Shown one piece after another: positions 859 to 60,914 of a stretch of 64,000 nucleotides of DNA. The DNA comes from Chlamydoabsidia padenii (lineage: Eukaryota; Mucoromycota; Mucoromycetes; Mucorales; Cunninghamellaceae): positions 558,001 through 622,000 of the forward strand of contig JAIWND010000013.1 in NCBI GenBank assembly GCA_025330725.1, in the 5' to 3' direction. Position numbers and translations under genes: made by a program. Numbering within the stretch: position 1 is the stretch's first letter; every line of letters starts with the position of its first letter. The notes under the pieces were generated by a model, which saw only the letters and a program-made list of their open reading frames with translations, did not search any database and was not told the origin of the DNA.

Positions 859-1552
859 GTTGGGGGTTTGTTTGTTTTTTTAAGAAACGAATAGAAAAAA
901 GAAAGACAAAGGAAATGGAAAACCCCATGACATTTTAAACATTTATAATTTTCACATCCCGCTCGGCGAATCAAAGTGCCGGATTTACACTCGGTAAATG
1001 CTTACCTGTAAACTTCTTTAACCATACTGATTGGCTAATGATGTTGTATGAAAGAGGATGGATGAACGTGATCATTGTACGATGGGAAAAATTAATTGCA
1101 TTAGAAAAAGCTCTCATCATACTGAAATCATCTCTTTCGCCATAACAACAAAACTTGCATGGATCGGTGATTTAAAAAATGTCGATATCACTCTGATGCA
1201 TTGATGTTTGAATAGACCTGGTCAAATATAACCTAGTGATAATAAGTATCATGGTAGTGATTAAAAACCTGTCCAAGAATCACAAGATTCATAATTCCCT
1301 TCTCCCACACCACCAATATCATCCGGCGTTTTTCCTTTTTTGTGCAACTAATGGATTTATATGTGATGCATTAATGTAGAGTTTCTCCGAAAAGTAAACT
1401 ATATTCCTTAGTACCATGACCCAAAGTATTTTAAAAAGAGACACAAATACTGTAGATTGGTAAAAAAAAAAAAAAAGTATGTTTTATTGATTTGGATTGT
1501 AAAAAAAAAAAAAAGGAGAGAGAGAGTGTGTGTATAATGTATAACTAAGGAT
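859..1552. other. Intergenic: catalase promoter and MPP-beta 3' end
   Basis: This holds the upstream region of the catalase gene and the 3' untranslated region of the MPP-beta gene. Two A runs and a short GA/GT repeat lie at 1460-1535. I see no coding potential. Confidence 0.6.
951..962 (-). promoter_or_regulatory. Candidate promoter element upstream of catalase
   Basis: TTCACATCCCGC on the plus strand, about 95 bp upstream of the catalase ATG. It is a variant of the window-wide GCGGGATTTSAAAT element. Confidence 0.45.
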
Positions 1553-3076
1553 CTAACGAATTAAATTAAAGTTGGTCATTTTATCTACAGGACCAATACC
1601 TACAATAGCAGCATCCCTATTCAAGTAATCAGTAGCTACTCGACGCACATCGTCCACCGACACCTTGGAGACAGCTTGTTCGACTTGCTTGGGGGACATT
1701 CGTTCACCAGCAGTAAGTAATTGACGACCAATATCTTCAGCAATAGGAGTAGACCCATCCAGACCTAAAAGCAAACCCGCCTTGAGTTGTTGTTTGGCAC
1801 GTTCGATTTCCTCGGCCGTGACCGCCGTACACAATCTATAGAATTCATTACGAGTACACCTGAGCAAATCATCGATGCGATCTGTATTTTCCGTGACCAT
1901 ATAAATACCCCACAGCCCAGTATCCTTGTAAGACGTGTTGAATGACATGAATGAGTTGGCCAATTGATGATTATGGACCATGGAGGATAGACCCGAGGCG
2001 ATATGACCCGTTGCACCCAGCGATCGATCCCACGAGCCAATGATGGATTGCATCACCAAGAGAGGGAAATAGTCAGGCGATGTCCAGCTCGCACCTTCCA
2101 CCGCCACAGCAATATGAGCTTGAGTGGCATTGGTATCCATCACCTTGAATTCAGATCCAGAGAAGACGGCTTTTTTCATGGCACTCTTGCTGGATGCCGC
2201 ATCACGCACGTTGGGAAGTTGACCAAAATGTGTTTGAGCCAAGTCCACCAAGGCATCATGGTCCACACCACCCGCACCCACCAGGATCATACGTTCGCCC
2301 GTATAGTTGGTTCGAATATAGTCCGCCAAGTCTTCCCGAGTCAAAGATTGGATGTTTTCTTTAGGTCCCAAGATCGTCAATCCCAAAGGTTCCGACGGGA
2401 AGGCAGTGGCGTGAAGATGATCAAAGACGACTTCTTCCATTTGCTTTTCCACTTCTTCTTGTTCGCGCAGAATCACATCCCGTTCTCGTTCAATCGCACC
2501 CAAATCGAGTCGTGAATGTTGTAAAATGTCAGAGAGGATTTCCACCGCTTGAGGTACATCGTATTTGAAGGCTTTGGCGTAATACACTGTTTGTTCCCGT
2601 GAGGTGTAAGCATTCAAGTGGCCACCCATGTTTTCAATCTGGAGTTCAAGATCCCGCTGTGTTCGAGTTTTGGTGCCCTATATAAATATACATAACAAGT
2701 ATTAATTAGTATCCTTCATAGCCAATTCCAGAGTTCATTTATTCTATTTTTACCTTGAAGGACATATGCTCTAAAAAGTGTGCTGATCCATTGTTTTTGA
2801 CATTTTCAGCACGGGAACCAGCATCAATCCAAACGCCCACTGTTGCTGTTTGAGAAGCAGAGTTTTCTTCAGTGGCCACCGTAAATCCATTAGGTAATAC
2901 TGTTTTACGAAGGGTTGGTAATAGTTGTGTTGCTGTGGCTAATGATCGACGGCCCTATATTGTTAATGTTTATATAATGGTCAGTAACATTTATGTAAAA
3001 GTGTACTTTATAGTTCTCTTACCAGTAAAGATCGAGAAACCAAGTGGTTCGAAGAGCGTAAGAGAGAAGTGAGCAT
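1553..3076 (-). CDS. MAS1: Mitochondrial processing peptidase beta subunit
   Basis: Catalytic subunit of the matrix peptidase (M16 family) that removes presequences from imported proteins. Exons 3076-3023, 2954-2754 and 2677-1553 give 459 aa, the usual family length. The inverted zinc motif is HFLEH at residues 77-81, followed by the conserved MSFKGT, with the downstream acidic helix ([12 protein letters not shown]). The first exon encodes [18 protein letters not shown], and the next continues GRRSLATAT. This is a basic, Ser/Leu-rich presequence, so the protein itself is matrix-targeted. The start was chosen because it gives this presequence; longer ATG-initiated frames upstream are not presequence-like. 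Promoter-motif copy at 3161-3174. The alternative, a bc1 core protein, is less likely because HxxEH is intact. Confidence 0.96.
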
Positions 3077-3160
3077 TAAGAGGACGAGGAGGGAAAAAAA
3101 AAATAAGAAAGAAAACAGAAAGAAATGGAAACAGCCAGTCGGTTCCTTTTTCCACACTAA

Positions 3161-3174
3161 TTTTAAATCCCGCC
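3161..3174 (-). promoter_or_regulatory. Candidate promoter element upstream of MPP-beta
   Basis: TTTTAAATCCCGCC on the plus strand, about 85-98 bp upstream of the MPP-beta ATG. A strong match to the recurrent element. Confidence 0.5.
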
Positions 3175-3349
3175 CCGACCACTCACCCGCACGAGTCATA
3201 ATCCAAAAATGACTTTGCCTTCCGTCTATTACTAAGAGTTGATACAGTAAAGTGAATACATATATATTTTATTGTTATATAACAAGACTAAATACTAAAA
3301 TAATGAGTTACTAAAACTATTGACTACACAAAGATAAAAAGATACAGTA

Positions 3350-6300: not shown

Positions 6301-8470
6301 CACCCAGTTGCTTGCATTCATGTACATAGAATCGTAATATACCACTGTCTATTATTCATTGGTTTCAGATAAAAGGTTAATATTATGCATGGGTCTGGGA
6401 TTTTATTATTGACAGCAAAATTACCTGATTCAGGAGGAGGAATGATTGTACCGTCTTCTTTCTTTTCGGGCTTAGAGACAGGAAGATAACGAATGTCGGC
6501 CTTTACTTCACCAACAGCTTTACCATTTCGGAGAACCACCATATTCCTTTTTTTGAAAGAAAAAAAAAAGTTGATGATGAGTATGCTATATATATATATT
6601 GTTTTTGTTATTTGAGTACTTACTTTCCCTCCATGGCGTTGCCCGATTCAAGTTCCTTCAGTTCCATACTAGCCACACCGATTTGAGCATCTTTACGACC
6701 AGAGTTACGATCCATGACTTGGAAGTAAATGGATTGGTCGAGATTGTTGAGCAGGATAAAGTGAGTTTCGTTCCATTTGGGATTCTTGGTATCTTCGATA
6801 GCCTTTGTTTCAGCAGCAGATGGATTGTGGATATTGCCAACATGGAAAGTAACATAAGGATCCACAGAGCCGAAAATATCAGCAGCCTTGAGATTTGTAC
6901 CCGAGTAAATAGTGACAGCAGCCACACCATTGGCATCATCTATGTTATGAATAACAAACAACGTTTAAATTAAGTTTATGCATCCTTGTTGTTATTGTTA
7001 TAATTACCTAGGGACGCAACGTTGCCGGTCATATCCACAGTGTAAACATTAGGAGCATACATCATTGGACCCAAAGTAGCATGAATTTGTTCTTTGATAA
7101 AGGGTTCCAAACCAGGTATCTTGATAAATAAAAACAAGCGGGTTAGTATCATTCTAGTTGTCTTTTCTACAAGTGAGTATCACACTTACCATATTGATAT
7201 CAAATCCAAATGTATCACCACCCACAGGCTTGAGGGAATAATCGATTTCAGGGACTTCCAAGAAGGATGCTTCAATAGTCTTGATATGAGGGAATTCATT
7301 GTAAAATTTGAATTTCAAACGCATGTTGCCAGAGAAAGAGATATCTTCCAACAAAATTGGCATACCAGCACCAACCAGACCTTTACCAACACGGACAGTC
7401 AATACAATTTTGGGGTTGATCTTGGCATCCACTTCACGTTTTGTCAAATCAGTGGTATCATTGGGGACAAAGGACACCTTCCAATCCATACACTACAATA
7501 CAGTAAACAACAAGTTTTAGTTTCCCCACCTTTATTTATCTCTCTCCCTTTTTTTTTTCTTATTCTTGTCTTACCACCACATTAGGTTCAGTACGAGGAT
7601 AAGTCTTGATACCTTCAATGCGAGGAGCTTTGGTACCAAGAGTAAAGGTGGACAAACGGATCGAGTCCAAAAAGGAAGGAGTATTGTCGATAAGAATGGC
7701 ATCAGCAGTGTTGATGATTTGAGCAGAGAGACCAGGTTCATAGATAAGCCAGAAACGCGACATAAAGTTGTTAATCCAATCAGCCGATTCCACATCCGTC
7801 AATAATCTTGTGGTCATCATTTCTCGTTGGAGATCATCTCGCATATTACGACGAAGACGTCGAATGGAGGTTTGATAATAAGTACCTATTAAAGGAGAGA
7901 AGAAAAAAAAAAAAAGTGAGTCAGGTGTAGTTATATATATATTATCATCATTTTTTTTCCTACTTTACCCAAAAAAGCACCAATCACTAAACAGCCCATC
8001 AATCCACCGCCTAGTTTTGTTTGTACCCAAGTCGAAGCAACAGCAAAGATCATGACACCAGCGTTATGATACCATTCACCATAATAAGCTTCACTAAGAT
8101 AATGTGCAATCAAATCATGTTTGCTGGAACCCTTGTCAGGTCGAGAAGTGCTAAAGATATCCACCACCGCGTCAGAAGAGCCACCCAATGATTTCTTGAG
8201 TGTTTCCAGGTCTTGTTCTTGTCCAGGGTTAGGAAGGTCAGAGAAGGAAGTCCAACCAACATTATACCACTCAGGAAGATTACCATTACTTTTCTTGAAA
8301 CTACCAGGCGCATCGGAAGTAGTTGGTTGTGTATCACTAGTTGTAGGAGCATCTTGAGTTGGAGAAGCATTTTTAGTGTCCTTGTCATCAATGGAAGTAG
8401 GAGGAGAAGGTACAGGTGAAGGGGCAGTGGGTGCTTCAACTTGTGGATCGTTTTCAACTGGTGAAGCCAT
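3350..8470 (-). CDS. TCB: Tricalbin / extended synaptotagmin (SMP and C2 domains)
   Basis: ER-plasma membrane tether and lipid-transfer protein, 1384 aa from 14 exons: 8470-7969, 7885-7575, 7492-7190, 7119-7008, 6939-6624, 6546-6425, 6348-5914, 5840-5492, 5424-4736, 4634-4456, 4395-3906, 3841-3691, 3617-3478, 3405-3350. A Pro/Thr/Ser-rich N-terminus (1-125) precedes a membrane hairpin (about 136-168). The SMP domain follows (about 190-405, including DWINNFMSRFWLIYEP). Six C2-like modules come next; the strongest carry SDPYA / TSDPYAVF calcium-loop motifs. The fourth (about 900-1040) is divergent, and a Gly/Ala-rich linker lies near 1200-1250. Yeast tricalbins have fewer C2 modules. The summed exon length is in frame. 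The upstream motif GCGGGGTTTCAAA is at 8578-8590. Confidence 0.95.
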
Positions 8471-9854: not shown

Positions 9855-12063
9855 ATGGGCAAAGACACAAAGGGCAACACGAACGACACAGAACCGGTAT
9901 TGGACTCGATCAGTATGGAGGAACGTAAACGAGCCCTCAAATTACGAAAACGAGTCAAAAAGAAGATTCGGAAACAACAAGGCAAACAGTCCATTTGCAC
10001 TGACCAGCACGACAATGTAAGTATTGGAAAAATTTGTCTTGATCCTCTTGCTCACTTTTATGTTGTTTTCTTTTTTTTAGATACCTTTAGCCAATCCCGA
10101 GGCATCCGTGGAACAAAGTCAACAGCAACAAGATATACCTACACAAAGTCACAATTCAACTCGAACGTCAACACAACAGGATAACGAGGATGCCATTGAA
10201 TACGTCACATCGCCTATAGATCTCTCTTCACTTGATTGTTATGGACCTAATGTGGTGCAGCAATTCAGCAATGTCTTTAACAATTTTGAACATTTAGGCA
10301 ACACCAAGAACTATCCACAGAAACCACAACGCAAAAAGTCCACCAAGCATCAACAAACCAAAGTTAATCCAACCACAACACCTGAACTATCGAAAAAGAA
10401 ACTAAAGTTGGCACAACGATATACCCTGGATGAATTGAAAACTTTGGCAACGGTACCAGAGGTGGTGGAGGTAAGTGAATCACTTACTTTTCTTTATTTA
10501 ATACTAATAGGTTTACTTGTTCATAGGCTTGTGATACTTCAGCAAAAGATCCATTATTACTCGTCGATCTGAAATCCTATCGAAATACTGTGCCTGTCCC
10601 TAATCATTGGTATCAACGACAAAAGTATCTTTACCGCTACAAATCAGATGAAAAGCCACCATTTGAACTACCTGGTAAGTATATGAAAAGAAGAAAAGGA
10701 CATGAGGAATACTGCTAACTCTCTCTTTGGTCTATGTGATAGAATTTATCAAGGATACTGGTATCATGGAAGTCCGCGATAATTTGAAGAAACAGGAACG
10801 ACAGAAACGACAAAAGTCCAAAACACGCGAACGACGAAGACCAAAACTCGGGAAACTGGATCTGGATTATCAGTCGTTACATGATGCCTTCTTTAGGTTT
10901 CAAACCGAACCTCATTTGACTCGACATGGTGACTTGTAAGCAATAAAATAAAATACGATGATAATGATTACTAATAATGGATTAAATTCATGTTGATTGT
11001 TAGGTACTATGAACGAAAAGAAGCCATCTCTAAACTCAAGAATATGAAACCAGGTCAAATGTCTGATGAACTAAAAGAAGCTCTTGGTATCCTGGAGACA
11101 CCTTTGGCACCACCGCCTTGGCTTTTCCAAATGCAACGTTATGGGCCACCACCAAATCATCCTCATTTGAAAATACCTGGTTTAAATGCTCCACTTCCAG
11201 AAGGCGCTCAATGGGGTCGACAAAAGAATGGTTGGGGACAAGTGCCAGTGGATGCTGTAAGTAGTCTGTATGAATTAAGAGAAGTAAAGAACAGGAAATT
11301 GACTTTAGTATTTTATAGTTCAATCGTCCTCTTTATGGTGATGTCCTCCAATCAACTGCCATATACAATGATAAAACAGCCAATGTTAGTATCCAACTTT
11401 TTTTGTTTACCTGATGACCTCTAATTCCTCTTTCTTTTTTTTTTTTTTTGTTTTTATTTTTGTTTTACATAGGACACGGAGAAACAGGATATACAAAGGA
11501 CACTGTGGGGTGAACTAGAGGTTGGCAGCGACGACGACGAGGACGACGACAATTCCACTCAAAACAGCGACACCGACGATACCGAAGACAAAGTGACGCC
11601 GATGACAACTATGGATACAGACGAGGTGATACCCATTACTATGGATGTTGCATTGGAACTAGAAACGAAGAAACGCAAACGACGGTCGGACAGCACCTCG
11701 GATCAACCACTACCCAAACTATATGACATTATACCTTTGAAAAAGACCACCACCATCACGGGATTACTGGGATCCGATCATGTATACGACCTACCTCCTT
11801 CCAAAACACATTCTAATAATAACATTTCTCACACATGGAACAAGTCTGAAGATGTCACCGTCGCCCTGGATCCTTCTGATTTGGGCAACTATGGTGCTAC
11901 AGTGCAAGACATGTATGAACAGGCGCAAAAGGAACATCGACCAATGGGTGTAGGTGGTCAAGAACTCAAGACAATGTATACTGACCATGTCCGACGCCAG
12001 GCCAAGAAAAAACGACAATTGGAACTTAAAAACATGGACAAAAAGAAGGACTTTAGGTTTTAA
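9855..12063 (+). CDS. SF3B2: Splicing factor 3B subunit 2 (SAP145 / Cus1)
   Basis: U2 snRNP component needed for branch-site recognition. Exons 9855-10016, 10081-10470, 10527-10674, 10743-10935, 11004-11256, 11319-11384 and 11473-12063 give 600 aa. Diagnostic stretches are VPVPNHWYQRQKYL, EKPPFELPEFIKDTGI, KLGKLDLDYQSLHDAFF, the PSP-type block PPPWLFQMQRYGPPP...LKIPGLNAPLPEG, and DIQRTLWGELE. An acidic Asp/Glu run follows near residue 420. The C-terminus is Lys/Arg-rich. The first ATG at 9848 is out of frame and soon stops, so 9855 is the start. The gene is convergent with BRL1. Confidence 0.96.
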
Positions 12064-12969: not shown

Positions 12970-13030
12970 TCTTAAATAAGAAAAAGGAATAAATCAAGTT
13001 TGGCCAAAGGAGATGGAGGTGGTGGATTTC

Positions 13031-13066
13031 CGGGGATTTAAAATCAACCTATCGGGTATTCAAAAT
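13031..13066. promoter_or_regulatory. Two promoter-element copies between BRL1 and ESS1
   Basis: CGGGGATTTAAAAT (13031-13044) and CGGGTATTCAAAAT (13053-13066) lie in the 168 bp between the two divergent start codons, 62-107 bp from either. Confidence 0.45.
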
Positions 13067-13137: not shown

Positions 13138-13732
13138 ATGGTAACTACTTGCTTGCAAAAAGAATACATATCAAATTACGATACAGTTTAATTAATTCTT
13201 TTATTTTGATAGGATTTGCCTGCCCCTTGGATCATTCGTCACTCACGCACTTACAACAAAGATTACTATTTTAATCCTACCACCAAAGAATCACGTTGGG
13301 ATGCTCCTCCTCCAGCTGACCGGGTTAGAGCAAGTCATTTACTTGTCAAACATGCTGAATCCAGACGACCCAGTTCTTGGAGAGAGGTAACTAGAATCCC
13401 CTTTCCTACACACTCAAATTAACGTTTCTCTCCTTTTTTTTTTTTTTTTTTTTTTTTTGACCTAGGAAAACATCACTCGTAGTAAAGAAGAAGCGTTGGT
13501 TATACTCGAAGGATATCAAAAACAAATACAGAATGGTGTGGAAACTCTCAGTGCTTTGGCAACCAATTACTCTGACTGCTCAAGTGCCAAACGAGGTGGG
13601 GATCTTGGCTACTTTGTACCTGGACAAATGCAAAAGCCTTTTGAAGACACGACATTTGCTTTACAAGTGGGCGAACTTAGTCAACCTGTTTGGACTGACA
13701 GTGGCGTGCACCTGATCTTACGAACTGCATAA
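13138..13732 (+). CDS. ESS1: Peptidyl-prolyl isomerase Ess1/Pin1 (WW and rotamase)
   Basis: Parvulin that isomerises phospho-Ser/Thr-Pro bonds, for example in the RNA polymerase II C-terminal domain. Exons 13138-13140, 13213-13386 and 13466-13732 give 147 aa. The WW domain has Trp7 and Trp30. The catalytic domain starts at [20 protein letters not shown], which holds the Lys/Arg phosphate-binding residues, and carries [15 protein letters not shown] with the Pin1-type Cys. The linker is short, as in fungi. The first coding exon is only the ATG, immediately followed by GTAACT. No other in-frame Met precedes the WW domain, so this odd structure is needed. The second intron contains a run of more than 20 T. 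Confidence 0.94.
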
Positions 13733-21648: not shown

Positions 21649-21832
21649 TTATTGATGGTCCTTGATGATAATACTATTCTTTTTGTCAGCATATTCAGTC
21701 CAACTACCATCGTACACCGAGATATTCTTGGCACCAGCACGTTCCAAAGCAAAGTAAAGCACAGAAGCAGTAATACCACTACCTATAAACAACAAACCAT
21801 TTAGTATCAATACACTACCTCCTCCCTCAACT

Positions 21833-21868
<36 letters not shown>

Positions 21869-22831
21869 CATCACTTACCGCAAGTGGTGATGATAGGTCG
21901 ATCAAGATGAACACCTTTTGATTCAAACAGGGCACGCAATTCTTCATCCTTCTTGTACAGACCATCTTGAGTAGCCACCAGTTGGAAGGGCACACAAATC
22001 GATCCAGGCATATGTCCACTTGAAAGACCAGGACGAGGTTCAGGGGCTTGACCAGTGAATCGATCCAAGGCACGAGCATCGAGGATGTGCGGTACTTTAT
22101 CATCACCTTGTTGATACCGTTGACAGTGTTCGAGTACTGTGGCATGATCACGGACCAGATCAGGATTCAGTGTAGCTTGATAAGTAGCAGGTGGGGTGGA
22201 AGGTACCTCTTTTGTCGTATCCACAGGCAATCCTTGTTGAATCCATAAAGGTAGTCCTCCATTGAGGATCGAGACGTGTTCATGTCCAAACGCTTTGAAG
22301 GTCCAGTATACCCGTGCCGCTGACATGGGGCCCAAATTATCGTAGACCACCACATGATCATTGTTACTAATACCCAATTTCCCTAATAATAATAAAAACA
22401 TGGTAAAGGTGAGTTTGTCATTCCTAGCTTTTAACCCCTCTCTCTTTTTTTTTTTTTTTTTTTTTTCTTCTTACCAACAGAATTGGCAAAGACAGTGGCA
22501 CTGGGTAACATGTGAGGTAAATCCACAGCGGTGTCTTTAATAGTGTCAATCCCGAAAAACCGTGCGCCTGGAATACGTTTGTTGAGGAATTCTTGATAAG
22601 GGTCGCGGTTGGTGTTAGGCATATGCCAGGAAGCATCCAGTACCTTGAGATTCTTTTGCTTGGAATCCAAACATGATGCAAGTTCTTGGGTTGATATCAG
22701 GGTCGAAAAAGGGCGTAACGTGGTCATCTTGGCTGTACAAATGAAGAGATAAGTCGTGAGAAGAGTGTGCGAAATGGTATGGTTTATTTACCTGTGGTGG
22801 ATTTGTATAAACTTGTTGAAGCGCGCAACAT
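21649..22831 (-). CDS. TUM1: 3-mercaptopyruvate / thiosulfate sulfurtransferase
   Basis: Tandem-rhodanese sulfurtransferase that moves sulfur from 3-mercaptopyruvate or thiosulfate, in yeast feeding tRNA thiolation. Exons 22831-22792, 22732-22475, 22382-21879 and 21782-21649 give 311 aa. The C-terminal rhodanese domain has the active loop CGSGITAS (catalytic Cys split across the last intron). CGSG(V/I)TA is typical of mercaptopyruvate enzymes. The N-terminal domain has LKVLDASWHMP and no active Cys. The first exon, MLRASTSLYKSTT, resembles a mitochondrial presequence, and a second in-frame Met at 22727 could yield a cytosolic form. An (AT)n repeat lies in the last intron. Confidence 0.95.
21836..21866. 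repeat. (AT)n microsatellite in the last sulfurtransferase intron
   Basis: Uninterrupted TA dinucleotides between the donor and the acceptor of the last intron. Confidence 0.9.
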
Positions 22832-26825: not shown

Positions 26826-28552
26826 TTATTTCCCTTCTTCATCTTCAAGTAAAGCATTCATATTAGGCACACATGTAAACTTTTGCACAATGTGACCCAA
26901 TTCCACCGCCTGTTTCTTTTCAGCATCCACAGACATGACATTTTCCAAAAATGATGATCGCATGCCTTGTTCTACATCTAGTAGTACATTTCCAATCTTC
27001 AGTTTCATTTTGCCGCTTTTTAGTACCACTAACTTGCCAATCTGTCCTTCCGGTATTTTAGACAAGTCCATTGCCGCCATTTGATCGTCAATTGTTGACA
27101 TTTGAGCTGCCAATGGTAGTTGTTCCTTGACTTTGGTCTTGTCGTTTTCGTCCTTGACTTCCATCTTTATTTCGTCGCCTTCATCTTCTTGAGTAGTAGG
27201 TTTTTCAAATTTAGGTACCACAGCAGGAAGTTGGAAGAATAGGAGTTCATCGTCAGCTACAGACACTACTTTGTTCTAAAGAAAACGAAGAGTCAGTTTG
27301 ATTCTGTAATTGTAAAAACAAGGCATACCTTTTCATTGACAGCAAATATGTTTTGTGCAGGAGCATCATCATCCATCATCCATGATTCCCGAGGCGGTAA
27401 TACTTGATCGTCGTCATTATCATCATCCATCTTGATTGCGTCCTTGGGTTGGTCATCAGAATCAGAATCATTTCCATCTTCCGATTTCACTACAACAATG
27501 ATACACTAATTAGTCCAATGATCCCCTTTATGATGACATCCACCCTTTACCCCCCCCCCTCCAAATATTACCTTGTGTCATTTCCACATCAGTATCCTCC
27601 TTGTCGACCTTTGCTGGAGGAGTATTGATAGTCAACCATGGTATCTTTTCCTTTGGATTAGTGAGATCAGCCGGATCCAATTCACCCGCCAACCTTGGTA
27701 CATGAGGAAATACAACAGGAGTATAACCATCGTTTGCCTCGGCAAAAAGCACACTCATATCTGTTTCCGCCCCGTCGTCTTTTTCTATCCTTGAATTATC
27801 ACCACCATAAGTAGCAAACGCACCCCCTGATCCCGCCATACCAGATCGAGCACGAGAAGCTATATAATATAAGAATAAGGTTAATAAAGGAAGGTTTAGT
27901 ACATGACTGAGAAAAAGAGGAGGGGGAGGAACTTACACATCGCTGAAGGTCCCAAGGAGAAGATACCAGAGGCCGTTACTTCTTCAACCACCATGCCACG
28001 ACCACGGCCACGTCCACGTCCACGTCCACGACCACGACCACGGCCTCGACCATCACCTCTACCACCACGATGACCACGGAATCCATCACGACCTGTTTCT
28101 TCAGATTTCGTTGCTTCGTCAGTTGGTACTCTATTGAATCCAAGGTAATAAGATTAGTAATTAATAGAAGATATCCACAAGTCAACTTACACTTCCTTCT
28201 TATTTCGTTTAGTTGGAATCGTTGGCTTGAATTTCATCTATTCAAAAAGAAAATAAGAAGGTGAGTAGTGTTTTTTTTTTGACGAGGTCATTACCTTTAT
28301 AGCACCACCTCTTGTTTTAGGACCATGGATACTTTGGAGTCGACCTTCTGTTGGTTCAGATCGCATATGACCAAGTTGTGCTCCATTATCGACTGGTGTA
28401 GAGTCGGCTGGTTCCGTTGTTGCTTCAGGTGTTGTTGTAGGAGTGGCACGATCACTTGGACGTCCTCGACTGCCGCCACGGAGAGTAGGTGCGAATCGTC
28501 GTGTTTGCTTCTTTACGGTCGAATTAGTGGGTGTTTCTGATGGATTGGACAT
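26826..28552 (-). CDS. RPC53: RNA polymerase III subunit RPC4 (Rpc53)
   Basis: Subunit of the TFIIF-like Rpc53/Rpc37 module used in Pol III initiation and termination. Exons 28552-28295, 28237-28191, 28130-27937, 27859-27572, 27489-27329 and 27275-26826 give 465 aa. The C-terminal domain is diagnostic: GQIGKLVVLKSGKMKLKIGN, followed by LDVEQGM...FLENVMSVD and ending FTCVPNMNALL. The N-terminus has the basic RFAPTLRGG...GAIKMKFKP stretch seen in RPC4. Exon 3 encodes an uninterrupted Arg-Gly repeat (about residues 118-140) and exon 5 an acidic run. Promoter-motif copy at 28641-28653. Confidence 0.94.
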
Positions 28553-32858: not shown

Positions 32859-32872
32859 ATTTCAAATCCCGG
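32859..32872 (-). promoter_or_regulatory. Candidate promoter element upstream of GEP4
   Basis: ATTTCAAATCCCGG, 59-72 bp upstream of the ATG. A second partial copy (GTAAATCCCGCCC) is near 32939. Confidence 0.5.
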
Positions 32873-33413
32873 TCAATGGCGGGGGTTGAATTTGCATGGA
32901 GGCCTTCTTTGTGAGATACAAATTTCATTCACAGATAGTAAATCCCGCCCACACTCGCTTGTTCCATTACCAGATCTAGAAAAACCATTCTCAGACCGAT
33001 TGTCAAAGGGTGCCCAGTGATTTCAGTGGCTAGTAGTTTTGGTGATCGACACGCCCAATTGATTTGTAATCTACAGCCGTGTAGCAAATGTCCTGATCAA
33101 TACTCGAATCATGCATGATCTGGTTACTGTTACACACGAAACAAACCATCTTAAATCATAACATGTAGCGCCATGTAGTATATAGCTGTTACTAACCTTT
33201 TGATGAGGGGTAACACATGCTGTATACTGTATGCGCCTATAATGTTAAAAAAAAAGGACAGATACATAATTCTATTGCCCATCATAATGTTACAGTTAGA
33301 TCACCGTAACAATCATACACTGTAACCCATACACAAGAATGTTATTATAAAAACCAACTACAAACTTTATTAATTGTTATAATAATACAATGAGCTATTG
33401 TTAAATTTCTAAT
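32873..33413. other. Intergenic: GEP4 upstream and ISWI 3' end
   Basis: AT-rich region with the ISWI polyadenylation area at its right end (TTTATTAATTG near 33368). No gene is seen. Confidence 0.5.
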
Positions 33414-38399: not shown

Positions 38400-40656
38400 A
38401 TGCTATTCTCACCTGAAGATGCCACTTCTTTAAAAGCCTATCTTGGTGATCTTGTTGCCTCGGAGTAAGTATCTTTTTTGTATTTGAATAGCTGACGTTG
38501 TGGAAATCTATAGCGTAATTAAACAGGGTCTCCACAGACGCGCGTACTTGTCCTTGTAATCAGATAACTAACTTCTTCTTTGTAATAGATCTGATGCCGA
38601 CCCACAAGTATTAGCCGACTTTATGTTTGCTTTACTTCAAGCCGATGCCACGGAAGATGTCCTTTATGCACGTTGTGTTGAAGAACTCTCTGTCTTCTTG
38701 GAAGAAAGTAAGTGTGTATACAAAATATAGATCTCAACTGTCTTGACACCTTCTCTAATCTTGTGATTATTTATTTTAACAATAGAAACCGAAGATATTG
38801 TCAAACGTGCCTTTGATGCTTTAAAAGGTAAATCCTACTTGCCCAAGGAACAGCGATTACCAGCAACTGAAGCCACAACAGCCACAGCTCCTCCAACAGC
38901 GCCTACCTCTACAGAACTCAGTAAACTGACAGAGACAACATCATCTCGGCCGTATCAAAAAGAAGACGATGACGAAGACGATGACGAAGACGATGATACA
39001 AACTTTAAGCGTCGTAATAACAGCGGCAAATCGAACTCGACATTGGAGACAAATAATGCAGGAAATCAGACACAAAAGCGACCCTTCTCATCTGATGATC
39101 ATACAGATAATGGTCCTATCAATAAGCAACAACGCCATAATACAAATGCTGGACCAAACTCAACACAGAACTTGCTTTTTCAACAAAGGTTAGGAGGTGT
39201 CCGCCGATTCAAGAAACCTTGCTTTGACTATGAAAGTAAGTGATAACTAGAATTAGGCGTCACAAAAGAAGCACCATCTAGAACCCTCTAATCTGACCCT
39301 CTCTGTCTCTCTTTTATGTGCTTACTTAGGAAAAGGTTATTGTATGCGTGGTGACTTTTGTCCTTATGATCATGGCGAAGACCCTGTAGTAATGGAAGCC
39401 AACAATGGTGGCGTCATGGAACCTATGAACAATCAAATGGGGAATGGCTTCAATAGCAATACTGGTGCAGGTGGACCGATGCGAGTCAAGGGTCATGGCA
39501 TGTCTCGTAACGAAGATGGCATGATGAAGATGATGGGCAACAACCGTAAACCAGAAGATGTACCTTACACAAGTCGATATACTCCTTACAGCACCAAAAT
39601 TGTCGTGGAAAAAATACCCGAAGAAAATTGCAACATCGACTCTGTGACGGGATTCTTTGGTAAATTTGGTAAAATGGTGAATCTCTCGGTCCAACCAGAT
39701 GTATCACGGGCGTTTTTACAATATGCAACTCATCAAGAAGCTTTGGCGGCATACCAGTCTCCTGCGGTCATCTTTAACAATCGATTCGTCAAGGTGTTTT
39801 GGCAAAAGGTGAATGAAGAAGAAGAACGAAAGGAATTCATTGAACAACAACGTTTGGCATCTTTACCTGATCCTGAAGCAGTCAAGGCGAAAGCAGCACA
39901 ATTGGCCAAGGAACGGGAAGAACGACAAAAGAAACAACAAGAACACCTCAAAAAAGTATTGGAATTACAAAAACAAAAACAGCAATTGATAGAACGACAA
40001 ATCGAAGAACAAAAGAAACTGATGGAAAAATACGAACAAGCATTACCTGGCAGTAAAGAACGAGAAGATATCATGGTGGCGATCAACAACCTCACTGATT
40101 CTATCAAGTCTAACAAGGCTTCAGCTATCACACCCACATCAGTATCATCAACAGCAACAACAACATCAGCTATACCACCTCAGGCATCAAGTACCACAAC
40201 AGCATCATCACCATCATCATCAATAACACCGCCATCATCAGGACCTCAGCATTCGGTAACAGGATCAACGTCTCCCAGCCCAGCAACTACCTTGGATGCG
40301 AAGAAGGCGGAAATGGAAAGATTAAAAGCGAAACTGGCCAGCTTGGAAGCGGTAAGTACATATGGGATTTATGTCGTCTAAATTACAAAAAGTGATTATA
40401 CTGACTCATATCGCAATAGGCAAAGAAATTTGGATATGCTTCTCACCGTGGAGGACGTGGCGGCATGAATACTTGGTCAGGTCGTGGTGCACGAATCTTC
40501 TCACTTGACAATAGAAAGAAACCAACTCCACCTGCTCCTACACCAACTACTACAGCTGAACACACTCCAGTAAATAGCACCGAGAAAACGAACGACAACC
40601 AACCACAAGAAGAAGGACCCACAGTAAACAATATAGTACCCACTTCAAACGCATAG
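38400..40656 (+). CDS. RBM26/27-like RNA-binding protein (PWI-like, CCCH, RRM)
   Basis: Nuclear RNA-binding protein of the RBM26/27 family; its fission yeast counterpart works with the MTREC/exosome RNA surveillance machinery. Exons 38400-38464, 38589-38707, 38786-39235, 39330-40351 and 40420-40656 give 630 aa. An N-terminal PWI-like helical domain (1-75) is followed by an acidic/Thr-rich linker. The CCCH finger is CFDYERKGYCMRGDFCPYDH (C-x7-C-x5-C-x3-H), then an RRM (TKIVVEKIPEEN...FGKFGKMVNL). A long charged coiled coil (KEREERQKKQQEHLKKVLEL) follows, and the C-terminus is GRGG-containing. The finger is assembled correctly only after removing the intron at 39236-39329. Confidence 0.93.
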
Positions 40657-42665: not shown

Positions 42666-43749
42666 ATGATGCAATCTGATTCTACTTTATCTGTGAAAGA
42701 TGCAACTGGGCGGCAAATTAGTCTTTTGAATGATCATCAACAACAACAACAACAACAACAAAATGTTTCTTCTTTGCATGGAAAACGAAAATACCATTGT
42801 ACTGAATCTGGCTGTCATAAAAGCTTTACTACAAGGTAAATCATAACAAAAAAAAAAAAAAAGTAATGATAACTTTTACTAATACTTTTCCTTTTTTTTC
42901 TTTGGGCTTATTTATAGTGGTCATCTTGCTCGCCACCACCGTATACACACAGGAGAAAAGAACTTTCATTGTCTTCACCCTGGATGCCCATCACGATTCT
43001 CTCGTCAAGATAATATGATGCAACATTACCGTACTCATCTCTCACCCAAAACTCGTCGTCAACAGGTGCAACAAAGAAGTAAACAGACGAACACTAACGA
43101 CTACCCACGTTTGCATTGTCATACCCTGGTTGGATCAGACGAGGATAATGCCATGCACCCCTTGATCAATCCATCCGATGAAAGAATGGAACATACAACA
43201 ACGATTGTCAACAGATCTCGCCGGGCCACCACTTTACCTTCCTCATTCCATCCTTATCATCATTTATCATCATCATCACATGTGGATTACTTTTACAACA
43301 TGACAGTCAGACAGAATCATCATTTACCTACTTTGATTCAACCATTATCGACCATGGAGAAGCCTTTACCTATGGAACCTGATTCGGCACCCAGTCCATC
43401 ATCATCCATCATCACTTCACCTACTATGATGAACAATAGTACTGCGACTTCACCTGATACTTATCATCATCACCATCATCATCATCCTTACCAAGTATCT
43501 CGTCGACCTCAACGTGCTCATTCTTCTTCTTCCACTTGCTCAACCACTTCTTCTTCGTCTTTTTTATCTCCACGTCCAATGTCCCCTCCACTGGTGGATC
43601 CAACCGACATCATCTACCCCAAGCATTTTATCCAACTACCACCTCCACCACAACAACACAAGAACCACCATTACAACATCGTCTCCCATGGTCATCATCA
43701 TAGACAAGGTTTATTGGATTTGGCACATACGGTTAGTATATTTGGTTAA
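42666..43749 (+). CDS. NRG1: Nrg1-like C2H2 zinc-finger repressor
   Basis: Exons 42666-42835 and 42918-43749 give 333 aa. Two C2H2 fingers lie at about 46-100. They read YHCTESGCHKSFTTSGHLARHHRIH and, after the linker TGEKNF, HCLHPGCPSRFSRQDNMMQHYRTH. FTTSGHLARH followed by FSRxDNxxQHYRTH is the Nrg1/Nrg2 signature of glucose and hyphal-gene repressors. The intron splits the first finger between FTT and SGHL. A Gln run precedes the fingers; the C-terminal 230 residues are Ser/Pro/His-rich with a His run. A GTTAGT near the 3' end (43730) could be a donor for a further exon, but none is evident, so I use the stop at 43749. Confidence 0.88.
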
Positions 43750-47448: not shown

Positions 47449-48676
47449 ATGTTTTCTTCTCTTCGAACACAACCTATCAAATGGACCACCCCATCACTTA
47501 TCAAACGACTTTATACTGGCGGGCGTCTAAAGGGTAAAACTGTCTTCATGTAAGTAGAGACACATGCCATATAAAGTAGGATGGATTGACTGACTTTTGT
47601 TTTTTTTATACATAAATATAGAACGGGTGCTTCTGCTGGTATCGGTCTTGCTACAGCCCATGAATTCGCCAAAGCAGGGTCCAACTTGGTAAGCATATAT
47701 TAATACTAATACAGGCGGACATTACTATTATCCTTCCCTCCTTTTTTTTTTTTGGTAAAATAGATTCTCACTGCCAGGCGTATGGATCGACTGACCAGCT
47801 TGAAACAAGAACTACAAGATACTTTTGCAGGAATTCAAGTACATACAATGGGATTAGATATGCGGGATAAACCAAGGATTGACAAAGCAGTAGCGGATCT
47901 TCCTGAATCTTTTAAACAAGTGGATGTGTTGGTGAATAATGCTGGATTAGTGATTGGTATGGATCCAGTGGAATCGGTGACGGAGGAAGCGTATGATACC
48001 ATGTTTAATACCAACGTCAAAGGTCTTGTCTTCCTTACTCAAGCTATCTTACCTATCATGAAGAAGAGACAGCAGGGTCATGTGATCAATATGGGCTCGG
48101 TGGCTGGAAAGGAAGCTTATCCTGGAGGAAGTATCTATTGTGGTAAGTCACTTGTCTTTTTGCAAAATAAAGGGAGGGAAATACTAATAGACTTTATTAT
48201 TATTGTATATAGGAACTAAACATGCGGTGGAGGCTATTACTAGATCGTTACTATTTGAATTGATGGAAACACCAATCCGTGTAAGCCAGATCTGTCCCGG
48301 CATGGTCGAAACCGAATTCTCCAAGGTCCGTTTTGGTGGTGACAGTCAAAAGGCAGCCGATGTTTATGACGGCATGACTCCTTTGATGGGACAAGATATT
48401 GGTAAGGGTCTTCCTCACTTTATAAATAATCCATTGATGATGAATAACTAACTTAACTCTCTTGTTATAATATAGCCGAACTTGTTGTTTTCACCGCTTC
48501 TAGACCTCCACATGTTAACATTTGTGATATGCTAGGTAAGTCTTCACACCTATCCTCCCTTTGTAAGAAATTTAGGAATAACAACCATGCCTTTATATAT
48601 ATATATATATATATATATGTCTCTAGTATTCCCAACAGCGCAAGCATCGGCTCGCATGGTACACCGTAAAAAATAA
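47449..48676 (+). CDS. NADP-dependent short-chain dehydrogenase
   Basis: Classical SDR of the YMR226C/YdfG 3-hydroxy acid dehydrogenase type. Exons 47449-47549, 47622-47688, 47764-48142, 48213-48401, 48476-48535 and 48627-48676 give 281 aa. The cofactor motif is TGASAGIG followed by ARR, which favours NADP. NNAGL, the catalytic Ser (NMGSVAG) and YxxxK (YCGTK) are all present, as is PGMVETEFS after the active site. An N-terminal extension of about 30 residues (MFSSLRTQPIKWTTPSLIKR) is basic and Ser/Thr-rich and might be a mitochondrial presequence. The start is preceded by a CT-rich leader. The last intron contains an (AT)n run. Confidence 0.93.
48594..48618. repeat. (AT)n microsatellite in dehydrogenase intron
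   Basis: TA dinucleotide run just before the last acceptor (TCTCTAG). Confidence 0.9.
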
Positions 48677-49510: not shown

Positions 49511-50755
49511 TCAAGACCGAGCAGGTTCCAGCAAAGTGCACAGCCGAGTCAAGAGTGCGTAGCCTTGTTCGATTTGTAAAGCCCGATACATAGCGGCCAA
49601 AGTATCAGTGGCGACTTGATAGGGAGCCATTTGTTGTTGTTGTATCCTTTCAATGTCTTGAATCCACGTTGTATAGTAGTGTTGTCCCACCTGCAAAAGA
49701 TGTTCCGATAATAAACCCAGACAAATCGATCCACCCTGCACCATACTGGTATCTTCCTGCATCATGCCGGTATTTTCCTGTCGTTTTGTGATACCATCCG
49801 GCCATATTATGTCGTCGGTAGAATCGTTGTGCATGGTGGTCACACAAGGTTGAACGAGTGACGCCAAAGGCGGTGGAGTGGCCGTGGTGAGTGCCAAACA
49901 AAGACGCTGAATATCTTCGGCCAAGAGAGGATCGCCAGTGTGGTGAAAGAGGGAGGAGTACAGTTGATGCATTCGTTCCTTGTTTTGCCGCGCATTTTCT
50001 TCAAACACACCTTGAAAGTCCTGGATCAATTGTCGGATCTTGGTGTGGCCATCAGAGCGTACCAGGAGATGTAAATGTTTCCGCCGTCGTTTGAATCTCG
50101 TTGTTGTTGTCCTTGTCGTCTTTATTCCAAACCAGTTTTTTAGATTGCTAACCAGTCCCGAGGAGGAAGATTTATTTTTTTCTACCACCAGAGGATACCA
50201 AGCATGACCATGTCGCTGTGTGAGTGTGTTAGGAGAGGAGGAGGGTGGTGACGCGAGGGTGCTGACAATAGGCTGAATCCGATCCAATGTCCATTCTCGG
50301 CGTAGCAAAGAGAGTGCACGATGTAGGTGATGTAATTCGTCATAGACTTGGCTGGATAGATTCAGTCGTCCACTCAGTCCATGGATTACCTTTAATTGTT
50401 CGTATCGTTCCCTGTCGTTTTCCAATGGCCGTATTTCAAATTGTTGCATTGCCGCTCCGTACTGGTTCCTGAGAGTGGCGAGATGGTGGTAAAGTTGCCT
50501 TGTTGCTTTTTGTTGGTAGAAACGAGCGAGGATAGGTGTTGATTCGTTTATGCAAGTCCCTGGGTCGGCCGTGTGTTGGATGTGTGTAATCGTTTGGTGG
50601 ACTTTTTTCACCAATTTCTCCAGACGTCTTTTTTCTTTTTGATTCAGGAATGGAAGTACATGTTCATGTTGGTCATCTGTGTTGAAGAAGAAGACAAGAT
50701 CCCGATCGATGGAATGTAGTGGATCCATTTGGTCAAGTGTCATTCCAAAAAGCAA
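49511..50755 (-). CDS. Hypothetical 414-aa helical protein, intronless
   Basis: A single open frame with no intron. The product is predominantly helical and charged (EKRRLEKLVKKVHQ, YQQKATRQLYHHLATLRNQY, DELHHLHRALSLLRREW). It has a central basic cluster (RFKRRRKHLHLLV) next to NLKNWFGIK, and a C-terminal helical segment with Gln and Leu. No domain is recognised, and no signal peptide or membrane segment is visible. A good promoter-motif copy lies 99-112 bp upstream, and the codon use fits its neighbours, so I believe it is a gene. The second Met (50743) is an equally possible start. Confidence 0.75.
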   Translation of the reverse strand: MLFGMTLDQMDPLHSIDRDLVFFFNTDDQHEHVLPFLNQKEKRRLEKLVKKVHQTITHIQHTADPGTCINESTPILARFYQQKATRQLYHHLATLRNQYGAAMQQFEIRPLENDRERYEQLKVIHGLSGRLNLSSQVYDELHHLHRALSLLRREWTLDRIQPIVSTLASPPSSSPNTLTQRHGHAWYPLVVEKNKSSSSGLVSNLKNWFGIKTTRTTTTRFKRRRKHLHLLVRSDGHTKIRQLIQDFQGVFEENARQNKERMHQLYSSLFHHTGDPLLAEDIQRLCLALTTATPPPLASLVQPCVTTMHNDSTDDIIWPDGITKRQENTGMMQEDTSMVQGGSICLGLLSEHLLQVGQHYYTTWIQDIERIQQQQMAPYQVATDTLAAMYRALQIEQGYALLTRLCTLLEPARS

Positions 50756-56390: not shown

Positions 56391-57027
56391 GATGGTGATA
56401 GATCGTTCGTGTTATTTCTTCTTGTTGTTGTAATAGTTAGTTTATGTGAGTTGTAATTGTCGGATTACTGAAGGTACGTTTAAAAAAAAAGGGGGAGAAA
56501 GAAAGTGGAGAAGAAAAATGAGCCAATGCCGGTCGACTTGGTTAAAACCCAGTTCTTGGCAGCAATTCCGTCCGTGTGACGTCGGGATGTGAAATTAAAT
56601 ATTCGATTCCTGCCATTTTGATTGACCAATTGGTAGTAGCTCAATCGTCTGTGCTCAAATAAATGGGATTACATGGAAAACTTTGCTGACCAATAGAGTT
56701 GAATCAAAGGCTTAGGGAGAGATCATTGTGCTATCTTTTTTTTTTTTTCTGTATTATATTAATTGGAATGAAATCGAGACAACCTGTGAAGAGATAAGAG
56801 ATATTCATGCACACGTTGTTACACCAAACGGACTCTTGTGTTTGATTATGATATAGACAAATACAAAGTGATGATGATGATGATAAGTAAACAAGTTTTA
56901 TTGAAGGGTAATGTAAAAAGTAAATCTATGTAGTAAAGAGAAGAAGTGAACATATATTTATATACAAATATTATAGCTATAATTACAAAATATAAATACA
57001 TAACAATAGGTCATAAAACACTATAAT
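56391..57027. other. Intergenic: VHS/GAT promoter
   Basis: Contains CGGGATGTGAAAT (56583-56595), a variant promoter element about 195 bp upstream of the ATG, and the 3'UTR of the PH-domain gene. No ORF. Confidence 0.5.
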
Positions 57028-58257
57028 CTAAAATCCATGAGACAAAGGAGGAGACGATGTACCACTATTATCAGGAGCAGAATCCTTGTATAGTAATTTC
57101 GAATGACCCGCCACCATATCGTCTTCAAAATGAAACAGTTCATAAGGTTGCCAATCTTTTCGAGGGGATGAGTTTGGCGTATTGATAGTACAGTTGTTCT
57201 TGTTATTGCTAATGGAAGAGGCGGATGTCGTCATACTGTCGTAAGATCCAGTAGGACTTTGCTGTTGATTGTTGTAATGTCGAATACCATGTTGATTTTT
57301 GAGGTTGGAAAGTGATCTTGATACAAAGGAGATGGGATTTGAATGACGCTTGTTCAATGATGATGATGATGATGATGATGGAGGTTTCTGTTGTGAGTTG
57401 GTGAATGAACATGCTTGGGATGATAATTGTTGATCAATACTGTTACCGGGATTGTTGTTTGTAGTGGGATACAAGATGATATTTTGACCCATGTATGGAC
57501 GAGAGCCAGCCGATGATGATAATGAGGTTATTTCTGATGGTAGACTGTCCAAAGAATCGGTCGATATTCGACAAGGTCGTGAATTTGGTGAGATGGGAGA
57601 AGGTGATGATGCCAATGGACTAGTCTGATGAGTGTTGTATGTTGAAAGAGAAGATACTGTGGTGCCACTTTTATTTGATTTTGAAGGTGGTGAATGTACA
57701 AGTGGTGGTGGTGAGTTTATACGAGTCACTGGCGATAATGGTCTTTGCTGATGATGATGCTGATGATATATCGGTGAGTTATCATTAAGGTCTAATCGAT
57801 TAAGCCATTTATCTAAAACACTATAAGAATCGTCCATAGGAGGTGGGAAAGCAGCTTCAAGAGTATCGTATTGTCCTTTCTTGAGAAAGTTGATGGTATC
57901 GTTGATGTGTTCAATCCAGTGTTGGCATTCTTTTTCATGGTCGGCATAAAAAAGATACGATCGATGGTGTTTAGACTGTGCGACAACCCGGAAGCCATAG
58001 GGGTGATGTTTTCCGGAATCCTTTTCGGCAATCATATAGTAATTAAGATCGAGTACCCCATGAGGACGCAAATCTGCCTAGTAAGAAAAAGGAGGTCAGG
58101 TTAACAGTTGAATGGATACGTTAGGAATGTCTCTTACCTTGTGTTTGTAGTATTTTAGTTCGTTTTCAATGAGAATACAGTATCGTGCATGTCGAGTAGG
58201 TACCAGACCGAGTGTAGCATGTTTGAATAGCCATCCTTCTGTAACAGCGCTGGGCAT
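57028..58257 (-). CDS. PH-domain protein
   Basis: Exons 58257-58138 and 58077-57028 give 389 aa. Residues 1-110 form one pleckstrin-homology domain. It starts EGWLFKHATLGLVPTRHARYCILIENELKYYKHK, which is cut by the intron, then LRPHGVLDLNYYMI, YGFRVV, RSYLFYADHEKECQHWIEHINDTI (the usual C-terminal Trp helix). The rest is Ser/Pro/Asn-rich without a recognised domain, with a Ser run encoded by a TCA/TGA repeat (57357-57380). It is likely to be a phosphoinositide- or membrane-associated adaptor. The partner is unknown. Confidence 0.85.
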
Positions 58258-58548
58258 AATGGTGTAGGAAGAAGTAAATGTGTATGTGGGAAAATGGCAA
58301 AGAAGGAAAGGAAAGAAAAGAAAGAGAGGGAAAAAAAAAAAAAAAAAAAAGTCGAGCTACCCCTTTTTGAAGGAATTTTTCAAGCGCCGATTTTCCTAAC
58401 GCCATTATCCTATCAAACCCAAGTGGTGAAATCATTCTTACCCTCATTTTTTTTTTTACAACCCGACCCTTAGCGCACGTGGATTTGGTATCACACTACT
58501 TCAAACAATGGCATTGGGACAATAACGAGTACACACCCTCTTTATTAA
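58258..58548. other. Spacer between PH gene and zinc-finger gene
   Basis: Short intergenic stretch with one A run (58329-58350). No promoter-motif copy is clear here. Confidence 0.45.
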
Positions 58549-59884: not shown

Positions 59885-59934
<50 letters not shown>

Positions 59935-60623
59935 TTTGGATAGTTTCAAGTAAGCTAGTTCAGCTTCTTTGGGTATCAGTTCTGCAATGTTTGTCATGAG
60001 CCGTAAGGATTCTACAAATATATAAAGATAATGTTATCTACCATATCACATACATTCTATGTAATCAAGTTTTGCATTTTACCTGTAGTTTCGGGGTTGA
60101 TAAATCCTTCTTGAGTGCTGCTGGGTTTGGCTTGAGGTACAGCTACTTGATATCAATAGTAAGTTTAACATGATCCTTATCGACTGTTACCCCTTTTCAT
60201 TTTTACATATTATCACATTGCAAGTCACCATAACATACCTTTTTTACCGGTACCAGTAGCCTTCTTCACAGCAGCCAAATGTTTCGCACTCCTCAAGTGG
60301 TTTTGCATAGTGGCGTCGTTATTGAATTTCTTTTTACATTCTTTACAGTACAGATTGTTGGCTATTGGTGTTGTCTTTGTAGGTGTTGTCACTTTTGGTG
60401 AAGCAAGTTGTTGAGTGTCTTCAGTTTTAGATCCAGTGCAAAGGGACGATCTGTCAATCGTAGATCGCATATATGGTTGGAGAGGTAAGGGCTGGAAGAC
60501 TATATAAACAAAACAAATGAGAGTTATTTCATAAAGATAAACTAATAAAACGTTCTTTATACCATTCAAACAAGTTGTATCTAGTTCAGGATCATAGAGT
60601 GGGAATAGTTCTTGATTGGGCAT
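58549..60623 (-). CDS. C2H2 zinc-finger protein with helical repeats, uncharacterised
   Basis: Exons 60623-60563, 60499-60239, 60142-60083, 60011-59934, 59803-59583, 59534-59317, 59241-59211, 59096-58949, 58899-58823 and 58740-58549 give 448 aa. One U1/JAZ-type finger, YCKECKKKFNNDATMQNHLRSAKH, lies at about residues 80-103. The remaining 330 residues are helical with TPR-like pairs (LAQLAMARLYCLYNRQMEMAYDLY, SLLVEVAGAFAQTN, EKISIVLYGLASIG). They end in a charged coil (FLSKIARARRDLDYL). JAZ-type fingers often bind double-stranded or structured RNA; the role here is unknown. Every junction keeps frame. Intron 4 has a run of about 43 A on the coding strand directly after the donor. Confidence 0.85.
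59888..59931. repeat. Homopolymer T run (about 43 bp) in intron
   Basis: Lies immediately 3' of the donor on the coding strand (GTAAAAA...). Confidence 0.9.
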
Positions 60624-60701
60624 GGAGAGTAGAATGATTTATAAGGACAAGAGGGAAAATAAAGACGAGTCAAAAAAAAAAAAAGTCGAGGTTCCAGCTA
60701 T

Positions 60702-60716
60702 CGGGGGTTGAAAATT
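60702..60716 (-). promoter_or_regulatory. Candidate promoter element upstream of zinc-finger gene
   Basis: CGGGGGTTGAAAATT, 79-93 bp upstream of the ATG; a divergent copy. Confidence 0.35.
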
Positions 60717-60900
60717 GATGTTCCTTTTTGGGTTGAAGAATGCGTATTGTCGAAGGCTGCCAGTTACTGAACGTGCAAAAGATAACATAATAACACTGTA
60801 TCCTCCGTACTATTACCTATCTTCTGTAAAGTAGAATCTATGGTATTACCAAGTTTCAGATCTATAAATGGGGTACTTGGTCATGAAAAAAAAAAAGCAT

Positions 60901-60914
60901 ATTCAAATTCCGCC
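60901..60914 (+). promoter_or_regulatory. Candidate promoter element upstream of RPN3
   Basis: ATTCAAATTCCGCC, 125-138 bp upstream of the RPN3 ATG, followed by a CT-repeat leader (61001-61022). Confidence 0.4.

Follow-up and report, generated by a model that had tools for sequence, protein, structure and literature searches.

A rigid sequence word upstream of many predicted genes in the Mucorales fungus Chlamydoabsidia padenii

Most of what is known about promoter grammar comes from yeasts, flies and mammals. Literature searches on early-diverging fungi returned DNA methylation and TBP duplication, and no promoter element, among the matches listed. Here we describe a short sequence element, GCGGGATTTSAAAT in its exact form, that recurs upstream of predicted genes in a 64-kb stretch of the Chlamydoabsidia padenii genome (C5:558001-622000 of the 34,228,448-base, 95-contig assembly; hereafter the window). 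The element is a single rigid word that is enriched at predicted promoters, and we regard it as the probable site of an abundant nuclear factor.

Element copies and genes in the window

A total of 264 kb was analysed closely, made up of the window and C1:200001-400000 (pieces L031-L050). Gene starts were predicted with a homemade hidden Markov model (HMM) trained on the same 264 kb, which gave 131 models, 117 of them with at least 80 codons, and a site is defined as a score above 12 bits against a fitted matrix that was refined by iteration. The null for the matrix scan of the 264 kb is the mean of three Markov-3 shuffles; the other controls are column-permuted matrices, the reversed matrix and the reversed word pattern. 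Thirty loci with exact copies were fetched from across the genome, two of which (L009 and L010) overlap the C1 sample.

The recurrence of the element, which the original prediction had noted by eye from the letters of the window, is real: the window contains 41 matches to GCGGGATTTSAAAT at up to three mismatches, compared with 12.8 ± 3.5, and none of 100 shuffles reached 41. Eleven of the twelve positions quoted at that time are matches with zero to three mismatches, some with starts one base off, while the remaining one, 13053, is not within three mismatches but is a matrix site at 13052-13065. By the matrix there are 52 window sites, of which 47 are intergenic, 4 intronic and 1 coding. Copies had been placed upstream of at least 16 gene starts, and we find a site within 300 bp of the predicted ATG at 17 of the 27 window genes of at least 80 codons, 13 of which have a site at −72 to −132; the other 10 have none. 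The copies discussed here are the following.

949..962, minus strand: 98 bp upstream of the catalase-domain gene 45-858 (minus); 19.8 bits
3160..3173, minus strand: 91 bp upstream of the M16-peptidase gene 1553-3076 (minus), probably a mitochondrial processing peptidase; 20.5 bits
8578..8591, plus strand: 114 bp upstream of gene 7560-8470 (minus), no Pfam match; 16.8 bits
9755..9768, plus strand: 94 bp upstream of gene 9855-12063 (plus), no Pfam match; 14.8 bits
13030..13044, plus strand: weak copy with a one-base register shift, about 100 bp upstream of the PPIC-type rotamase gene 13138-13732 (plus); 12.8 bits
13052..13065, plus strand: second copy, 80 bp upstream of the same rotamase gene; 13.1 bits
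22906..22919, minus strand: sole exact copy in the window, 186 bp upstream of the rhodanese-domain gene 21649-22727 (minus); 23.3 bits
28641..28654, plus strand: 95 bp upstream of the RNA polymerase III RPC4 gene 26826-28552 (minus); 16.7 bits
30671..30684, minus strand: 90 bp upstream of the arrestin-like gene 29285-30588 (minus); 15.6 bits
32859-32872, minus strand, and 32879-32892, plus strand: two opposed copies; 19.6 and 19.4 bits
38285..38298, plus strand: 109 bp upstream of gene 38400-40656 (plus), largest exon without a Pfam match; 13.2 bits
42501..42514, minus strand: 161 bp upstream of gene 42669-43749 (plus); 21.5 bits
47370..47383, minus strand: 72 bp upstream of the short-chain dehydrogenase gene 47449-48451 (plus); 18.4 bits
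50854..50867, plus strand: 117 bp upstream of gene 49511-50743 (minus), with relatives in Absidia; 17.8 bits
58377..58390, minus strand: 127 bp upstream of the PH-domain gene 57028-58257 (minus); 13.5 bits
60701..60714, plus strand: 84 bp upstream of the zinc-finger gene 60057-60623 (minus), divergent from PSMD3; 19.4 bits
60900..60913, minus strand: 132 bp upstream of the PSMD3-like proteasome gene (from 61039, plus), in the divergent region shared with 60701; 19.1 bits

A Pfam scan of 27 window proteins or exons matched 17 to a family. The genes that carry the element are functionally unrelated, as had been proposed, and include those for a catalase, an M16 peptidase, a PPIC rotamase, a rhodanese, RPC4, an arrestin, a short-chain dehydrogenase and PSMD3. 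The term housekeeping fits them loosely, since the catalase, arrestin-like and C2H2 zinc-finger genes are among them; a kelch-BTB gene and a tricalbin-like C2 gene are among those with no element nearby. The copy at 32859 had also been placed upstream of a gene start, but for this copy and the opposed one at 32879 the models have no start of a gene of 80 or more codons within 300 bp, and the only open reading frame there encodes 39 amino acids. The protein of gene 49511-50743 matched 10 other proteins, five of them named (Absidia glauca, Absidia repens, Absidia cylindrospora, Halteromyces radiatus and Chlamydoabsidia padenii). At the right end of the window, beyond the PSMD3 gene, three strong plus-strand copies lie within 71 bp (63350-63420), and these probably belong to the promoter of a gene outside the window.

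A rigid word with a preferred position

The exact word GCGGGATTTSAAAT occurs 487 times in the genome (246 forward, 241 reverse) and the reversed pattern not at all, and CGGGATTTGA is the most over-represented upstream word that is not a simple repeat (25 occurrences against 0.1 in dinucleotide shuffles). The core of the fitted matrix is [AG][GT]CGGG[AG]TTT[GAC]AA[AT], with column frequencies, from its first C, of C 0.84, G 0.92, G 0.99, G 0.71, A/G, T 0.67, T 0.82 and T 0.91, followed toward the 3′ end by G/A/C, A 0.92, A 0.94 and A/T; information falls to near zero beyond about 15 positions. A scan of the 264 kb returns 229 sites against 13.0 in the shuffles, of which 204 are intergenic, 13 intronic and 12 coding. 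The earlier statement that coding exons lack the element is thus nearly right, the 12 coding sites being spread over 132.6 kb of predicted coding sequence. With a matrix built from C1 only, the window has 46 sites, compared with 4.1 when 50 column-permuted matrices are used (maximum 12); this test is not fully independent because the starting consensus was drawn from both C1 and the window. An Rfam scan of the window and eight loci gave no match.

The two parts of the element are held at a fixed distance. In the noncoding sample, CGGG-N2-TT[GAC]AA occurs 97 times against 2.2 expected, other spacings reach at most 11 against 1.6 (N3) and 8 against 1.6 (N8) with the rest mostly near chance, and most single substitutions in CGG or TTT-N-AA abolish occurrence, whereas the position following TTT and the final A are free. 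Genome-wide, insertion of one T leaves 3 copies and deletion of one T leaves 15, compared with the 487 exact copies. The element is therefore a single rigid word and not two loose halves.

This rigidity bears on a reading of the element as a hybrid E2F and cell cycle genes homology region (CHR, LIN54) site of the DREAM/MuvB complex. Such a site would have GCGGGA followed by TTTGAA, as the element does, and PMC3093354 gives the same order of halves for a hybrid motif; the genome also encodes six E2F_TDP domains (C7:409295, C56:775491, C19:83438, C67:231154, C1:2062540 and C8:577276), three scoring 88-97 bits and three 68-72 bits, which are possibly the E2F and DP types. However, the human cell cycle-dependent element (CDE) and CHR are described as separated by four nucleotides (PMC5716687), whereas the gap here is fixed at about one, and the four-nucleotide arrangement is scarcely in excess genome-wide (89 matches against 54 for the reversed control). 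Nor are the halves enriched in the noncoding sample, where TTTGAA alone is found 220 times against 215 and TTCGAA 32 times against 59, and the E2F words TTSSCGC/GCGSSAA are likewise at background (GCGCGAAA 1 against 0.6, GGCGGGAA 2 against 1.0); the E2F-like GCGGGAAA has a weak excess (6 against 1.5). The third base of the matrix is strictly G, unlike an E2F site, and the targets, which include catalase, RPC4, a peptidase and the proteasome, are not cell-cycle genes. Genome searches for LIN54 and LIN9 (PF03638, PF06584 and a CXC query) gave no match, with controls equally silent, and a CXC codon pattern gave 5 one-mismatch matches against 3 in the control. We dropped the DREAM site as very unlikely on the spacing, half-site and homologue tests, the last of these lacking a working control. 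Nine of the 89 four-nucleotide-spacer matches are identical copies on four contigs; these matches, on C82, C87, C88 and C90, are spaced about 10.78 kb apart, with one gap of 11.28 kb, and our guess is that they are probably ribosomal DNA repeats.

A second partial resemblance lies on the other strand. The reverse complement of the element contains TTCAAATCC, which we take to be the core of the tRNA T-arm or B box, and the element might on this basis be a B-box-like TFIIIC site without RNA polymerase III. We rejected this reading, which we consider extremely improbable, because B-box-like words without CCCG occur at chance: TTCAANTCC not followed by CG is found 7 times against 8.1, TTCGANTCC 4 times against 2.4 and GGTTC[AG]ANTCC once against 0.3, whereas TTCAANTCCCG is found 37 times against 0.15. 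ARAGORN reported one tRNA in 36 scanned sequence sources.

The element is strongly concentrated upstream of predicted genes. A site is present between −300 and −1 at 71 of 117 predicted promoters and absent at 46, while 60 column-permuted matrices give an average of 2.3 promoters (maximum 5) and the reversed matrix none; 63 of 117 retain a site after repeat-related sites, discussed below, are removed. Upstream of the ATG, site density is 0.34 per kb in the first 50 bp, rises to 5.62 at 51-100 bp and 3.92 at 101-150 bp, and then settles at about 2, and downstream of stop codons it goes from about 0.5-0.7 per kb within 100 bp to about 2 per kb at 150-350 bp. The distance first proposed, mostly 60-110 bp, is roughly right, the observed peak being −76 to −125. 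Among the 160 non-repeat intergenic sites, 45 fall between −150 and −50, compared with 23.6 ± 4.1 under uniform placement (maximum 41 in 2000 trials). Non-repeat sites are densest in divergent regions (2.43 per kb, with at least one site in 22 of 24), followed by tandem (1.31 per kb, 46 of 69) and convergent regions (1.03 per kb, 12 of 22). The original prediction had named equal frequency between convergent genes as the outcome that would speak against it; convergent regions are indeed poorer in sites, but by a factor of only 2.4 (3.0 in regions under 1 kb, the convergent ones among these having 7 non-repeat sites in 6.9 kb). Both orientations are used, as had been seen, with 28 occurrences in the same direction as the gene and 26 in the opposite direction. 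The reported pairing of copies, by comparison, is at chance level, with 15 pairs within 80 bp against 15.0 expected.

Many predicted ATGs have a strongly strand-biased C+T tract with almost no G just upstream, which is a second general promoter feature. The element is linked to this tract. On the strand toward the gene, sequence about 40-90 bp downstream of the element is pyrimidine-rich and G-poor, with no TATA peak, and the best pyrimidine count in 25 bp averages 23.6 at promoters with the element (n = 68) compared with 19.7 at those without (n = 49; p = 1.6e-10). An element lies within 312 bp at 56 of 67 promoters with a strong tract (1.4 for permuted matrices) and at 15 of 50 without one (1.1 for permuted matrices). 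The distance from element to tract start has a median of 47 bp and quartiles of 35-61 bp, with a few tracts on the other side, although this tightness is partly built in, because sites were chosen by their distance to the ATG and the tract was sought between −150 and −1. A tract 15-100 bp away accompanies 70 of 83 promoter sites, compared with 507 of 1345 random promoter points (37.7%). The same holds to a lesser degree for non-promoter intergenic sites, 50 of 121 of which have a tract compared with 770 of 3423 random distal points (22.5%), suggesting that some of them mark missed promoters. For 21 of the 30 exact copies, too, a pyrimidine tract is present on one side at 15-100 bp.

Other promoter words are less informative. 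TATA boxes occur between −220 and −35 at 23 of 117 promoters, unlinked to the element, and neither TATA nor CCAAT shows a position peak or a link to the element at predicted promoters. The control word TTTAAA is linked to it (p 0.0017), perhaps because one variant of the element contains TTTAAA. With the element masked, no further complex word is strongly enriched in promoters (best z 4.6), in a search that by design excluded low-complexity and all-pyrimidine words.

What may bind the word

We hold it probable that the element is the site of one abundant, sequence-specific putative nuclear factor that marks, and probably opens, the promoters of a large part of the protein-coding genes. Such a factor would read a rigid, non-palindromic word of 12-14 bp, with CGG almost invariant and followed by TTT-N-AA, on either strand. 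Its site would usually lie a few tens of bp upstream of the pyrimidine tract, the presumed transcription start zone just before the ATG. The bound factor would keep the region nucleosome-free and help to recruit the pre-initiation complex without fixing direction, acting in the manner of the yeast general regulatory factors Reb1 and Abf1 or of the Drosophila housekeeping factors DREF and M1BP. If we had to guess at its class, a multi-finger C2H2 protein would be the likeliest, as the word is long, contiguous and asymmetric; the account of Lichtheimia in PMC4133162, with more C2H2 than Zn-cluster factors, fits this guess and proves nothing.

The original prediction left a choice between a general core-promoter element and a site for an abundant factor. 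Enrichment at promoters, a preferred position and unrelated target genes bear out the idea in general, and the core-promoter part is the less supported. As a true core-promoter element, the word would be bound by TFIID or a TBP variant, set the start site and replace TATA, which would agree with TATA being rare and unrelated to the element, with the element lying a few tens of bp upstream of the tract and with the presence of two TBP genes in the genome (C1:466527-467220, L051; C26:235667-236317, L052), as reported for Mucorales in PMC4133162. Against this, both orientations are used equally and the spacing to the tract is loose, so that a proximal factor site suits the data better than an element defining the start site, and we think a core-promoter role unlikely. 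The promoters of the two TBP genes differ while their C-terminal cores are nearly identical, with one predicted difference over the last approximately 138 residues, so the second TBP is not a diverged TRF2-like protein, and such a protein was rejected as the reader of the element.

Several observations weigh against a general promoter factor. The 46 predicted genes that lack a site within 300 bp are one, and the persistence of about 2 sites per kb in distal intergenic DNA is another; convergent regions hold 1.03 per kb where chance would give about 0.05, although repeats account for part of that excess. Of the 30 exact copies examined, 28 are intergenic. Downstream of 23 of these a predicted ATG lies in reach, at a median distance of −323, with 10 within 300 bp and only 5 at −60 to −140. 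The DNA upstream of both TBP genes contains no element above 12 bits, with one of the two stretches spanning only about 60 bp. Flank comparison of 257 sites found 44 that resemble non-neighbouring sites (41 of the 229 matrix sites and 3 of the 28 added exact copies). Finally, the HMM gene starts are unvalidated and some genes are split by the model; two model pairs in the window (SLIDE and SNF2; two PSMD3 parts) look like fragments that each belong to one gene. Much of the distance of exact copies from ATGs may be due to long or spliced 5′ leaders and to missed genes, and promoters without the element may include false model starts, in which case true coverage would be higher.

Some of these observations are what would be expected of an intergenic chromatin or replication element, such as a barrier, a terminator roadblock or an origin-factor site, that occurs at promoters as one location among others: about 2 sites per kb away from ATGs, about 1 per kb between convergent genes and exact copies often far from predicted starts. 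The strong preference for −50 to −150 and for divergent over convergent regions speaks against it, as does the association of non-promoter intergenic sites with tracts above that of random points, and we judge it improbable.

Spread of the word by repeats or transposons would in turn agree with the shared flanks. The largest group of sites with shared flanks (17 sites) belongs to a family of about 240 bp, found both in tandem and inverted, that carries the element. Units form short tandem arrays at L048:411-1666 and L039:4783-5194 and also in L004 and L025, and at least 157 matches are found genome-wide (best 40 of 382 first-look candidates scored), with up to about eight units in a row and some arrays inverted and facing each other (examples at C4:745214-747573, C7:48221-49589 and C34:64984-66785); presence of the element was checked in the units that were fetched. 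The family looks like foldback-type elements or repeated promoter-like units and has no match in Rfam. However, 188 of 229 sites have no similar flank at a non-neighbouring site, and information is near zero outside the word, so that spread by repeats is already mostly refuted and we regard it as highly unlikely.

A bolder form of the abundant-factor reading is that a single factor is the default promoter-defining protein for most RNA polymerase II genes in this Mucorales lineage, with the 13-bp site and the downstream pyrimidine tract as the standard promoter, replacing TATA, CCAAT and several yeast general regulatory factors. We put this forward tentatively, as a possibility that we doubt. 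A word at 71 of 117 predicted promoters could in any case serve as bait for the factor, as a guide to start sites and as a part for synthetic promoters, and it opens the question of how dependence on one general factor arises in a lineage.

Comparison with known systems

The kind of element is known, and the word and its reach in this lineage are undescribed as far as searches show. Letter searches of the literature with short strings of the word returned nothing on Mucorales promoters among the matches listed, and letter and topic searches together gave no account of the word among the matches listed, in agreement with the first impression that it had not been described. The N6-methyladenine (6mA) target motifs given for Mucorales, VATB and AAAACA (PMC11258239, PMC12695648), differ from the element and were set aside. 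The tRNA B box shares TTCAAATCC with the element on one strand, but the invariant CCCG of the element falls outside the B box.

In the hybrid E2F/LIN-54 motif of C. elegans (DRM Motif 1), as presented in PMC3093354, the halves stand in the same order as in the element. The consensus here, GCGGGATTTGAA, likewise has a G+C-rich half 5′ of a TTTGAA-like half. It differs from CDE/CHR sites in the fixed, near-zero spacing of its halves (about one), in a CHR half that is unenriched alone and in targets outside the cell cycle.

The yeast factors Reb1 and Abf1 offer a closer likeness, in that one short site per promoter region serves many unrelated genes. The Reb1-type word, which we take to be CGGGTAA, is a different one and is not enriched here (4 occurrences against 4.7 expected in the noncoding sample). 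PMC12541377 presents Reb1 and Abf1 as barrier factors that act on specific motifs and have roles in promoter nucleosome-depleted regions. In contrast to these, a majority of predicted promoters carry the site here.

The Drosophila proteins DREF and M1BP, according to PMC10183819, bind housekeeping promoters and recruit, for example, TFIIA, and do not set the exact start. Their sites, DRE and Ohler/Motif 1, resemble the element as sequence-specific sites of housekeeping promoters, and differ from it in word and lineage. In fly housekeeping promoters several motifs share the work, whereas in C. padenii a single complex word stands out.

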